From positions 1 to 64,000 of the forward strand of contig JAJEIP010000082.1 in the NCBI GenBank assembly GCA_022827885.1: a stretch of DNA of 64,000 nucleotides, in the 5' to 3' direction. Origin of the DNA: Candidatus Poribacteria bacterium. Its GTDB lineage: Bacteria; Poribacteria; WGA-4E; WGA-3G. The notes beneath the pieces are model-generated. The model made no database searches. It was not told the DNA's origin and saw nothing but the letters and a program-made list of their open reading frames with translations. The position numbers and the translations under genes are program-made. Of the stretch, positions 22,326-27,895 are shown one piece after another (the stretch's first letter is position 1; every line of letters starts with the position of its first letter).

Positions 22326-22928
22326 TCATTGTTCCTCGGTTTCTTCGGGAAGACGGAAGTGCGGCTCGCCATCTGTTGATCGAATCGTAAAACCGCTCCA
22401 GACCCACCTGTTATATCTACCTTTTACATCGGTATATATCACTTGCGTTAAATGTTCATCTGTAATTGTGATAGTGTAACGGCTATCAATCGTCTCATTT
22501 CCCGCAGGAATCCGCAAGCGCTGAATCGGTTTCTCACCATTCGCAATGAGATTTATCTCTAACGGTTCAGATCTATCCTCTTCATCTACTATATTTGCAC
22601 TGAAATAACATATCACTTCGTATGTCCCATTAGGCAGTGCAACTCGGAAAACCCCATCTTCTTTTCCCAAAATGCTATCTGTATAAGGTTGTGAAACTCC
22701 AAATTTGTTTTGTGACGCTTCACGCGTTGACACTGTTAACCAGCCGTATTTTCCATCAGTGTAAGTTGTATCCACATATACAGGAATATGTCCGGGTGCT
22801 GTCTGACCGTCTTCAGGCTGCATGTCAAAGGAGACAACGGTTCCACCATTCCACATCTGTGGATCGGGTGGCGTGCGTTTGCGGCGGTAGAGTCGGTTGT
22901 ATTCGTTAGCATCGATAAGATAATAATA
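22326..22928 (-). pseudogene. C-terminal beta-sandwich domain cut off from the membrane protein by stop codons
   Basis: About 200 codons that continue the frame of the membrane protein at 22932 directly after two TAA codons (22932-22934 and 22929-22931). The frame reads YYYLIDANEYNRLYRRKRTP and then a jelly-roll-like domain (VVSFDMQPEDG, DGKYGWLTVSTREAS, GVFRVALPNGTYEVICYFSA, RYNRWVWSGFTIRS). It resembles galactose-binding / rhamnogalacturonan-esterase N-terminal domains. An internal ATG at 22856 could start a 176-residue fragment, but no ribosome binding site precedes it. The domain probably belonged to the upstream membrane protein. Confidence 0.65.
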
Positions 22929-22934
22929 TTATTA
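22920..22934. repeat. AT-rich palindromic triplet tract carrying two stop codons
   Basis: TAATAATATTATTA (22921-22934) is a perfect palindrome. It is made of TAT/TAA triplets and encodes, on the minus strand, stop-stop-Tyr-Tyr-Tyr. Triplet slippage here would preserve the frame, which fits the intact frame on both sides. Confidence 0.6.
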
Positions 22935-24467
22935 CAAACCACCAACATCGCCGTATTCTGTCCGCCAGATGATAGCGAAATCGGCAAGATGTTCCTTTTC
23001 CTTATACGCTTCCTTATACCGTAGCGGAAAATGGTCTGTATTCGCCTCGTAGTTATCGAGATAAGCGATCCCCTTATGCACCGCCAGCAGACACTCGAGA
23101 TGACCGAAGGGTTCAACGTATTTCGGTTCAAAACCGAGCGAATCTGAAAAACCACCCCATTCCCCCGGTTCACTCGTGAGAATTGTATCCTTTTCGTCCA
23201 TCCCCTCCAACGAGATAGCATTGGCAATGTCGCGGTTCAACAAGGTATAAGTGTGAACGTTGTAACCGAGATGCCATAAGGATAGAGCAATGATAATCAC
23301 TCCCGCAGCAGCGTTTATATGCCGATGCAAATTGACAGCAAAGAATGGAATCAAGATAAGGAATATGTAGAGATGAAACCGGTCATTTATCCAACCACCG
23401 CTGTAGCCAGACCAAGGCGCTATGAAAAACATCACCGTGATAATGACAGACATGATCAGAAACCCGTCCATTTGTGACACAGTACGTGTCCAGAGCCGTT
23501 CGCCAGTCTCTTTCCATGCCTCTGATTTATGGAATTTGTAACACTGCCAGATTCTGTTGGTGATTGTAAGGACAATAGCGATAGCAAAAAAGAGCAGCAG
23601 TACACGCCCGATCAGCACATGATCGTCTCGAAAAGAGACCAAGGACTTCATGCCAAAGAAGTAGTCATTTAACCATTCAAAACCCTTATGGTTGCTGTTA
23701 CCGCCGTGGTTGTTGGAAAGGTAGAAGTAGTAGGAAAACAGGATAAAGTAAGCAGGTATAAGACTCCCTATGAAAGTCAGTGTAGATTTGTGCATCCCTA
23801 TACTTACCTTGAGTCGGTGCATGCGTGGTTGTGAGGTCTCCTTATGGCTCCATACCCGATGTAACACATCATAAGCCGATAAGAAGAGAGGGAAGAATGT
23901 CAATGACATGATAAGCACCGCGTAAGAGTGATAGTGGGTGAGGTAGGTCACCAATGATAATACGTATATGACAATGATGTTTGTCAGCCGGAGTTTATCC
24001 TTGACTCGCCACCAGTAACCCATCGTGAAGAAGTACAGGGACATACTGAGGACAAAATTGTAGAAACCCATGTGGAGTAGGTAGTTGTAGGCAAAAATAA
24101 ACCCAAGCAGTCCAAACACTATATTCTTTTTCTCGACACGGTTGAGGAAATAGAGAAGGGAGAGCGGTAGGAGACCGATACAGAGCGTAAGCACTATCTT
24201 TTCACAAACGAGGGGTGGAAAGACGTATAACAGGACTACAAGGAGCGCGTGGGAGGTCCAGTTCGGGAAGATCGTGGCATTCAGTTCATAGACTTCGCGT
24301 AATCGGTAGTTTTCGTGATTGTGGTATTCCTTCACCACGTAGGAATTGTAGATATGACTCGCTCCATCTTGCGTCGGAAAATACTTGAAACCCCAGACCG
24401 GCAGAAGATGTAGTACTATTAACACAATGACGGTAATATATCCAACAGATAGTTTATGCGTTTTCAT
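22932..24467 (-). CDS. polytopic membrane protein, GT-C glycosyltransferase-like (3' end interrupted)
   Basis: A 511-residue integral membrane protein with about ten hydrophobic segments. The first is YITVIVLIVLHLLPVWGF, followed by an acidic loop FPTQDGASHIYNS. Others include LTLCIGLLPLSLLYFL and FGLLGFIFAYNYLLHMGFYN. A soluble C-terminal part follows. The topology and the early acidic loop resemble GT-C / PMT-type sugar transferases that use lipid-linked donors. The start is ATG 24467, preceded by AAGGAAAATTAAAAAA from the dispersed repeat. It ends at tandem TAA TAA, after which the same frame continues for 200 codons, so this is probably the N-terminal piece of an interrupted gene. Confidence 0.7.
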   Translation of the reverse strand: MKTHKLSVGYITVIVLIVLHLLPVWGFKYFPTQDGASHIYNSYVVKEYHNHENYRLREVYELNATIFPNWTSHALLVVLLYVFPPLVCEKIVLTLCIGLLPLSLLYFLNRVEKKNIVFGLLGFIFAYNYLLHMGFYNFVLSMSLYFFTMGYWWRVKDKLRLTNIIVIYVLSLVTYLTHYHSYAVLIMSLTFFPLFLSAYDVLHRVWSHKETSQPRMHRLKVSIGMHKSTLTFIGSLIPAYFILFSYYFYLSNNHGGNSNHKGFEWLNDYFFGMKSLVSFRDDHVLIGRVLLLFFAIAIVLTITNRIWQCYKFHKSEAWKETGERLWTRTVSQMDGFLIMSVIITVMFFIAPWSGYSGGWINDRFHLYIFLILIPFFAVNLHRHINAAAGVIIIALSLWHLGYNVHTYTLLNRDIANAISLEGMDEKDTILTSEPGEWGGFSDSLGFEPKYVEPFGHLECLLAVHKGIAYLDNYEANTDHFPLRYKEAYKEKEHLADFAIIWRTEYGDVGGL

Positions 24468-24587: not shown

Positions 24588-25595
24588 CTACCTCTTTTTT
24601 ATTTTACCCCATTCGATGGGTAGCAGCTGCGGTCGGGGTAATACATCCAATGTTATAGGATCGAACCAGTCGGCTAACGCGTTTGCCTGATACGGGACGC
24701 CAATATGTGTCAGTTGTGTTACCACTTGACTGCCTACATCAATTTTAAAGAGTTGGAGGTGCCCATCAATCTCTTGTGTATAAACGATTTCATCTCCGAG
24801 TGGTGACCAGACAGGATTTTTCGCTTTCGGACCGGCTTCGTTAACAATTTGCTGCACGTCAGTTCCATCAGAATTCATAATGTAAATTGTCTCCTGACTG
24901 AGCCATTCCGGTGGGACGAGAAACGGTTTTCCGGGCATCGCATCCGGTGGAACTGGAAGCGGATTCTTATTCCAAGAAAAACAGAGTTTGTCGCCCGTAA
25001 CTGTCCATGCCGGATTTGCTTGCCATGCTGAGACCTCTTGCGGAAGCACTTGCCTTTGCCGCCGTGTGTGAATATTCAGGAGGACAAGACGATGCGACCC
25101 AAACGGATTTAATGTCAAGGCAATCTCTCTACCATCAGGCGACCACGCCGGATCAAAACCGTCGGCAACCAATTCTTCCATTTGCTTACCTATCGTAGCA
25201 ATATAGATAAACTCACCCCGCTCGTAAGCAATCTGTTTGCCATCGGGTGACCACGTTGGGTTTTCTCTGTGTGCTGTCCGTTTGAATACTTTTTCGACGT
25301 TCCCGCCATCAGCATCCATGAGATATAGATCTCGAATACCATCGCGATCGGATACAAATAAAATTTGTTCACCAGTCGGGGACCAGGCAGGAAAAAGATC
25401 GTCTGCCAGATTTTTCGTTAAGTTCACCTGTTCGCTCCCATCGGGATTCATTAGGTAAATCTCGCGGTTAAGATCACGGGCAGACACAAATACGATTTTG
25501 GCAGTTCCCGGTGCCTGCGCCAAAATAGGGCAAACCGCTCCGTATAATAAGGCAACACTTAACACTAAACAGAGCAATAGAGATAAACCTTTCAT
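24588..25595 (-). CDS. secreted TolB-like beta-propeller (PD40) protein with WGxIK tail
   Basis: A 335-residue exported protein. Residues 1-27 are a signal peptide ([20 protein letters not shown], cleavage near LAQA). The rest is a run of PD40/WD40-like blades: [69 protein letters not shown] and [16 protein letters not shown]. It ends [14 protein letters not shown], the shared tail. ATG 25595 is chosen because GGAGG precedes it; the longer frame has no signal at its start. It is the most diverged of four paralogues (others at 31238, 32305, 33375). Likely an extracytoplasmic binding scaffold; no enzymatic motif. Confidence 0.83.
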
Positions 25596-25766
25596 CGAAT
25601 TACCTCCAAGGGATCCTGAAAAAATAAATTTCCTTTTCCGTCTGAACTCCATTCTAATAGATTTTCGCTTTTGTTTCAAGGGAATAGTCGGTTTTGGAAT
25701 CCCAATGCTTTAACTTTGGGAGGAAAAACCGCCCTCTTGGAAAGGACCAAAACGTTCATTTTTCCC

Positions 25767-25892: not shown

Positions 25893-27122
25893 ATGAAATT
25901 AACTTTTAAGTATCCTGTGTATCCTACCAGAACACAGGAACAAACAGTGTTAGCGTGGCTTGACCACTTGTGTGACCTTCAGAACTCTGCTCGCCACGAT
26001 CGCAAGGTAGCGTTAGAAGTTGAAGATCGTTTCGTCACGCTCTCCGAACAGCAAGACAAGTTAACAGCCGCTCGTGAGAAATATGACGACTTCCGAGAAG
26101 TGCCACAAGATTTCCAAAATCACGCCCTGCGAAGAAACGATAAAGCCTTTACTGCCTTCCGCAAACGTTGTAAAGAAAACGCTGCGAAAAAAGGGTATCC
26201 TCGCTACAAAAAGCGTGTCCGTTCTCTGACGTGGAGTCTTCGCAAATATACAAAAGTGGTTCGTCGAAAGACCAAAGACGCTGAAAAACAGACGCTACGC
26301 GTTCGCGAGAATCCAATCATAGAAACGCCCTTTCGCCATAACCGCTTGAAAGTGCCGAAGTTGGGTGAAGTCAAGATACGCATGCACCGCCCGCTTGAAG
26401 GGGATCCCAAAGAAGTTACGCTCGTGAAAAAAGCAAGTGGCTGGTACGCTCATATTACCTGTGAACTCCCCGATACCGCCAAAGTTGAACCGACGGATGC
26501 GATCGGTGTTGACGTTGGCACAACGCACTATCTGACGACTTCCGAAGGCGAAAAGGAAGATAACCCGCGCTGGTATCGCCAAGCAGAAGGACTGCTCCAC
26601 AAACATAATCAGACGATGGCCCGCCGTAAAAAAGGGAGCAACCGCTGGTATAAAGCCGTGCATGCCGTTACCTTGCACCATGAGCGAACTGCTAACAAAC
26701 GCAAAGACTTTATCGGTAAACTCGTCTACAAACTTTTTCATCATTGCGGAAAGCACGTCCTCGTTGCGGAGGACTTGCAAACCTCTAACATGGTTCAGAA
26801 TAAGCACCTCAGCAAGAGCATTTCGGATGCGTCTTGGGGCATCTTCTTTACGTGGTGTGGGAACATAGCCGAAAGAGACGGTTTCCACGTCCACCAAGTG
26901 AATCCCAAAAACACTTCGCAAACCTGCTCTGCTTGTGGTAAGAAGTCGCCAAAGAAACGCTCTTTAGCGATACGCACCTTTGATTGTAGTTTTTGTGGCA
27001 CTTCGTTAGACCGAGACCACAACGCTGCGATAAACATACTTTTGCGGGCGGCTTGCGCCCATCGTGGAGAGCGTTGGGTTACCAACCTCTGTGAAACGAG
27101 AAACTTACCGGTAGACCGGTAG
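25893..27122 (+). CDS. tnpB: TnpB, RNA-guided endonuclease of IS200/IS605 type
   Basis: A 409-residue TnpB. The N-terminal helix-turn-helix/recognition part starts MKLTFKYPVYPTRTQEQTVL and holds the YPRYKKR basic cluster. The RuvC-like nuclease motifs are all present: Asp207 in GVDVGTTHYL, Glu293 in VLVAEDLQTSNM, and the Asp pair 373/375 in DRDHNAAINI. A four-cysteine zinc finger (Cys345, 348, 365, 368) lies between the last two. It is therefore probably catalytically intact. TnpB proteins cut DNA guided by an omega-RNA from the element's right end. There is no tnpA alongside. The family is also related to Fanzor and Cas12. Confidence 0.9.
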   Translation: MKLTFKYPVYPTRTQEQTVLAWLDHLCDLQNSARHDRKVALEVEDRFVTLSEQQDKLTAAREKYDDFREVPQDFQNHALRRNDKAFTAFRKRCKENAAKKGYPRYKKRVRSLTWSLRKYTKVVRRKTKDAEKQTLRVRENPIIETPFRHNRLKVPKLGEVKIRMHRPLEGDPKEVTLVKKASGWYAHITCELPDTAKVEPTDAIGVDVGTTHYLTTSEGEKEDNPRWYRQAEGLLHKHNQTMARRKKGSNRWYKAVHAVTLHHERTANKRKDFIGKLVYKLFHHCGKHVLVAEDLQTSNMVQNKHLSKSISDASWGIFFTWCGNIAERDGFHVHQVNPKNTSQTCSACGKKSPKKRSLAIRTFDCSFCGTSLDRDHNAAINILLRAACAHRGERWVTNLCETRNLPVDR

Positions 27123-27304: not shown

Positions 27305-27895
27305 ATGGGGGCAGGGATGGAAATCCCAAGTATTGTTATTATCGGCGATGATTCACAGGCAGGCACCTATATCTTGCGAATCCGCCTTAAAGAGAATACC
27401 GCATTAAAATTTGGGAGATTCAAGAAAGGGAAACTGATTTCATTACCTGCTGGTGATTACCTTTACATCGGCTCCGCACTCTCGGAGAAGGGATCCACTT
27501 CATTAGCACGGCGGCTTATCCGGCACGCAACGCGGCGTAACCCTCAGCCACCACATCCTATCCGAGAAAAAATGATAGACCGATTCATCAAAAGCGGTCT
27601 GGGACCTCGCGACCTATTACCAAAACGCGGTAAAACCCTACACTGGAACGTCGATTTTCTGTTGGATCTGCCATCGGCGGAACTCATCGCTATCCTTGCT
27701 ATCCGTTCCCCTGAACGCTTGGAGAAGCGTCTTGCCAAGCGACTTGAACAGGATCCACACACGGAGATTATCGAACCGGGGTTGGGAGCAAACGACGCGC
27801 CGGGTAACACACACCTGTTACGCATCCGATCAGATAGCACGGGGTGGACATCCCTCACAGACAAAGTAAGAGAGGTTCTGAAAGAAACGCCTTAA
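27305..27895 (+). CDS. DUF123 (GIY-YIG-like) domain protein
   Basis: A 196-residue protein of the DUF123 family, which is related to GIY-YIG nucleases and in archaea is sometimes fused to endonuclease III. Visible blocks are AGTYILRIRLKENTALKFGR, SLPAGDYLYIGSALSEKG, LARRLIRHATR, LHWNVDFLLDLPSAELIAIL, GLGANDAPGNTHLLRI. Either ATG 27305 or ATG 27320 could start; neither has a strong binding site. It stands alone between the TnpB element and the aminopeptidase gene. A DNA-related role is suggested by family only. Confidence 0.82.
   Translation: MGAGMEIPSIVIIGDDSQAGTYILRIRLKENTALKFGRFKKGKLISLPAGDYLYIGSALSEKGSTSLARRLIRHATRRNPQPPHPIREKMIDRFIKSGLGPRDLLPKRGKTLHWNVDFLLDLPSAELIAILAIRSPERLEKRLAKRLEQDPHTEIIEPGLGANDAPGNTHLLRIRSDSTGWTSLTDKVREVLKETP

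Follow-up and report, generated by a model that had tools for sequence, protein, structure and literature searches.

A probable recent nonsense allele in a GT-C-like membrane protein gene of a Candidatus Poribacteria bacterium

Relation to known proteins and layout of the gene

GT-C glycosyltransferases, such as STT3/AglB and ALG12, are the closest described counterparts of the membrane protein analysed here, which shares with them a predicted multi-pass fold, a soluble portion at the C-terminus and an invariant acidic motif, QDG, following the first membrane helix. Unlike the solved GT-C enzymes, to which it gave no sequence match, it carries an extra galactose-binding-like domain at its C-terminus. 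Similarly, this additional domain resembles AGA-YXIM_GBD (PF21254; PDB 2o14) and the CBM61/22/35 beta-sandwiches in profile and fold, but here it is fused to a membrane glycosyltransferase-like protein, and its Pfam score lies under the curated cut-off. As a mutated gene, the locus is like recent nonsense pseudogenes, with private stops in a conserved frame, possible signs of weak relaxation downstream and paralogues present. The stops described here come, however, from a dense cluster of substitutions of one class and not from a single point change. Our literature search found nothing specific on pseudogenes in Poribacteria.

The window, that is, the whole stretch of DNA analysed, comprises 64,000 nucleotides of a Candidatus Poribacteria assembly (G000). 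Translation of the minus strand from 24467 to 22326 gives a frame of 713 codons with exactly two internal stops, a tandem TAA TAA at codons 512-513 (Table 1). The frame is open on both sides: YYYLIDANEYNRLYRRKR comes directly after the stops, and no additional stop is met until the frame ends at 22326. Thus, the sequence-only reading, which had described, naming no strand, two tandem in-frame stops with the same frame continuing beyond them, was correct on this point. It had also placed a beta-sandwich domain immediately downstream; the sandwich is indeed there and in frame, but it begins about 30 codons past the stops and not at the stops, and the first codons past them still encode part of the conserved soluble domain that belongs to the membrane portion, as judged from a 37-member alignment and an AlphaFold model.

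Directly upstream of this gene lies a TolB-like/PD40 beta-propeller gene (24588-25679, minus strand), PD40 repeats being abundant in this genome (90 matches). Also nearby, on the plus strand, are a TnpB-like gene with OrfB_IS605 and Cas12f1-like TNB domains (25893-27119) and a gene for a DUF123 protein with a C-terminal stretch extending past the domain (27305-27895).

No Pfam or NCBIfam family scored above its cut-off for the protein. In the family alignment of 37 members, the QDG and PNW motifs are invariant. The AlphaFold model of the intact orthologue from G008, one of the two closest species (mean pLDDT 84.5, pTM 0.85), together with the alignment, predicts a membrane part of many helices, followed by a small soluble alpha/beta domain and, at the C-terminus, a beta-sandwich. 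Foldseek matched the membrane part to OST STT3/AglB and to ALG12 (E about 2e-4, TM about 0.3-0.4, over some 600-1000 columns); the predicted membrane part thus resembles GT-C glycosyltransferases, a structural resemblance at low identity. The C-terminal domain matched PDB 2o14 (YxiM) both by profile (E = 2e-5) and by fold in Foldseek (E = 2.5e-7), and Foldseek also matched this part to carbohydrate-binding modules.

Table 1. Features of the interrupted gene, in plus-strand positions of the window
Feature	Position	Strand	Evidence
Membrane part (GT-C-like) and most of the soluble alpha/beta domain, codons 1-511 plus the first stop	22932..24467	-	Translation, 37-member alignment, AlphaFold, Foldseek
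Tandem stops TAA TAA; two glutamate codons in relatives	22929..22934	-	Translation, comparison with relatives
Substitution cluster, five G-to-T changes (coding strand), no indel	22922..22934	-	DNA alignment with the two closest species
Sixth lineage-specific change, D to E, G:C to T:A	22902..22902	-	Lineage-specific substitutions
Perfect 14-nt palindrome TAATAATATTATTA, made by substitutions	22921..22934	.	Sequence
Remainder of the conserved soluble domain (two predicted beta strands) and linker, severed by the stops	22858..22928	-	Alignment, model
C-terminal galactose-binding-like beta-sandwich (AGA-YXIM_GBD-like), open but separated	22326..22857	-	Profile search, Foldseek, sequence

Termination after residue 511 cuts through the conserved soluble domain instead of between domains, removing two predicted strands of that domain (model strands 515-520 and 524-529, which read YDLIDA and YNRLYR in relatives) plus the entire sugar-binding domain. 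Natural paralogues of about 505-545 residues lack the sandwich, yet they retain the stretch aligned with YDLIDANDYNRLYRRK. Since these short paralogues keep the strands lost here, a stop after residue 511 does not separate the domains cleanly, and the truncated product has probably lost its function. It could still have partial function, as sandwich-less paralogues are natural, though about 18 residues longer. In related genomes, natural short forms (e.g. L066, L067, L079-L084, L089-L093) end just past an RLYRRK-like strand.

Orthologues and the ancestral state

The read-through frame was used as a query against 146 related genomes, and co-linear orthologues spanning both parts, at 75-94% identity, were found in 34 genomes of the same genus. 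These are the full-length homologues with both domains that the sequence-only reading had proposed to look for. In the 29 of these orthologues in which the junction was inspected, it reads WRTEYGDVGGLEEEYDLIDANDYNRLYRRKR or a close variant, the frame running unbroken through ..GLEEEYDLID.., with acidic sense codons at the position of TAA TAA and no stop in any (0/29). The stops flagged in these 29 lie near the natural C-terminus, at codons 702-708. Elsewhere in the family, flagged stops are also mostly near the natural C-terminus (codons 700-708), with one more flagged in G036, while two further family members in other genomes (L090 and L133) have mid-gene stops. As full-length orthologues exist and no junction stop occurs in the 29 inspected, the sequence comparison shows the fused protein to be ancestral and the stops to be confined to this assembly.

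The possibility of two separate genes, which the sequence-only reading had named as a refuting observation, was rejected, as the orthologues are fused. Nor does the ATG that lies in frame at 22856 have an evident ribosome binding site, and a search for promoter-like sites gave none. Two full-length intact paralogues are present in the same genome, one of 702 aa on contig C143 and one of 699 aa on contig C46, and they may cover the loss. A second apparent tandem stop, at about 4288 on C46, was discarded, as it lies upstream of what looks like a normal start codon.

The substitution cluster and its origin

The two closest species, G017 and G008, are identical to each other at all 15 positions of the tract, and the DNA alignment with the window shows five substitutions and zero indels. 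On the coding strand all five are G-to-T changes, at 22934, 22931, 22928, 22926 and 22922; every G in a 13-nt purine-rich stretch has changed and every other base is unchanged, turning the codons for E, E, E and D into stop, stop, Y and Y. The sixth change lies 20 nt downstream of the cluster, with no other lineage-specific change in between. The lineage-specific substitutions at 22902-22934 thus form an uninterrupted series of six G:C to T:A changes, a class with a background share of 7.8%. Along 325 kb of the genome aligned to G008, with 18,468 substitutions, the cluster is the sole same-type transversion run of five and, in the well-aligned parts, the only one longer than three; two other transversion runs of four proved to be misaligned stretches. 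When the substitution types were shuffled, a run of five was reached in 4/2000 shuffles. The inference of a single event is statistical, and the very high density, five of five Gs within 13 nt, counts against a real mutation of this kind.

Equal tract length, together with five substitutions and no indel, excludes the triplet expansion or slippage that had been suggested as the origin of the stops. It is tempting to see in the locus a programmed event, either phase variation by triplet slippage or readthrough of the stops, giving a short and a long form, as the downstream frame is open and still somewhat constrained. However, neither a repeat nor an invertible element is present that could drive phase variation, the tract being as long as in the two nearest relatives. 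Readthrough is very unlikely, given two consecutive TAA codons where relatives have acidic sense codons; a readthrough gene is expected to conserve its stop across relatives, and this stop is found in this assembly only and in none of the 29 relatives inspected. In addition, the protein is cut within its soluble domain, which is conserved, and neither a reinitiation site nor a promoter-like site is evident. A programmed event of either kind is therefore barely credible.

The AT palindrome that the sequence-only reading had pointed out is real, TAATAATATTATTA being perfect over its 14 nt, but since substitutions account for the tract, it is a product of the changes and not their cause. It occurs as a single exact copy in the 5.13-Mb genome, and 0.17 copies with up to two mismatches would be expected by chance in the window. 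Each mutated G formerly stood opposite an A across the palindrome axis and, after the G-to-T change, pairs with that A. Such symmetry recalls the template switching known from E. coli, which perfects imperfect repeats (PMC7202029), and we could speculate that one arm of an imperfect inverted repeat was copied locally, generating the perfect palindrome and the stops together. Conversion of all Gs to T yields a perfect palindrome in just 0.2% of comparable 14-mers, though palindromes of at least 12 nt arise near 4.8% of comparable 13-mers. These statistics are weak evidence, because the site was chosen partly for its palindrome. Moreover, the arm that serves as template in such a switch stays as it was, whereas here both arms changed, with three changes in one and two in the other; the orthologous 5 kb of the two relatives contain no donor with three or fewer mismatches, the genome holds no second exact copy of the tract, and as single-stranded DNA neither allele forms a stable fold. 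We thus consider a template switch highly improbable. An ectopic donor of the AT tract was also tried and rejected, as the sole other genome copy within one mismatch is on contig C105 and none was found near the orthologues.

We favour, at a probability of roughly 0.6, a real and recent nonsense mutation, arising in one event and inactivating the gene in this one lineage; of the explanations in the sequence-only reading, a very recent nonsense event is the best, given an ancestral full-length gene and private stops. In this scenario, the ancestor would have carried one gene encoding a multi-pass membrane glycosyltransferase of GT-C type that ended in a carbohydrate-binding beta-sandwich. One multi-nucleotide event would then have changed all Gs of the 13-nt stretch to T on the coding strand, for example if damaged guanines in transient single-stranded DNA were copied with A, converting two glutamate codons into the tandem TAA. 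The change would be present in the organism's own DNA, and translation would end at residue 511. A possible biological route is suggested by yeast single-stranded DNA, in which G to T is the main guanine substitution (PMC3799438). One could go further and imagine a bacterial process, specific for guanine and coordinated on one strand, that converts all Gs of a short purine-rich segment to T at one stroke, perhaps with hairpin pairing as a guide, and leaves AT palindromes with stops behind; we regard such a process as clearly improbable.

A single further convincing nonsense change was found among the 142 G008 open reading frames that matched the sampled sequence of this genome well, near the C-terminus of an oxidoreductase-like gene. 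This gene, outside the window (locus L106, contig C143 of the same genome), has 386 codons and is 98.7% identical to its G008 counterpart; its private TAA at codon 361 (129259-129261, minus strand) is one of several clustered, otherwise mostly synonymous changes.

Real mutation or artefact, and what the allele means

The main rival to the recent nonsense allele is a sequencing, base-calling or assembly artefact, under which the five to six substitutions would be absent from the organism and the gene intact and ordinary. This we hold to be quite possible, though short of probable. Each of the six changes belongs to one of the pairs, G/T and A/C, that are confused in four-colour Illumina chemistry, possibly not the platform used; in one evaluation, A/C and G/T swaps, each pair sharing a laser, were the commonest HiSeq substitution errors (PMC3334598; also PMC4381044). 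The changes, moreover, are private to this assembly, have no counterpart elsewhere in the sample and lie in a gene whose surrounding sequence is conserved. Against an artefact, the cluster sits inside a 101-kb contig (C34, 101,400 bases), so that several reads would need to agree, and no other such cluster was found in the sampled part of the genome.

Selection downstream of the stops also bears on this choice. Nonsynonymous to synonymous codon changes there number 9:9 on the branch leading to this genome vs 6:27 on the two sister branches together (Fisher p = 0.026), a mildly raised ratio, as expected of a real stop. Nonsynonymous changes on the same branch are still below the neutral expectation (p = 0.009), and by these counts the downstream part is still partly constrained. 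A ratio that is raised yet below neutral fits a stop younger than the branch, and leaves the reality of the stop undecided.

The locus also carries a caution, as an in-frame double stop in a palindrome resembles a switch, and it is the comparison with sister species that reveals a burst of substitutions of one class. If reads do not confirm the changes, the case would illustrate how a local base-calling fault can mimic a regulated stop. If they do, a natural bacterial genome would be seen to carry a dense cluster of strand-coordinated G-to-T changes. As a recent nonsense allele, the case is of an ordinary sort, unusual in its substitution signature, and would add one modest example of gene loss to a glycosyltransferase-like family that sponge symbionts carry in multiple copies.
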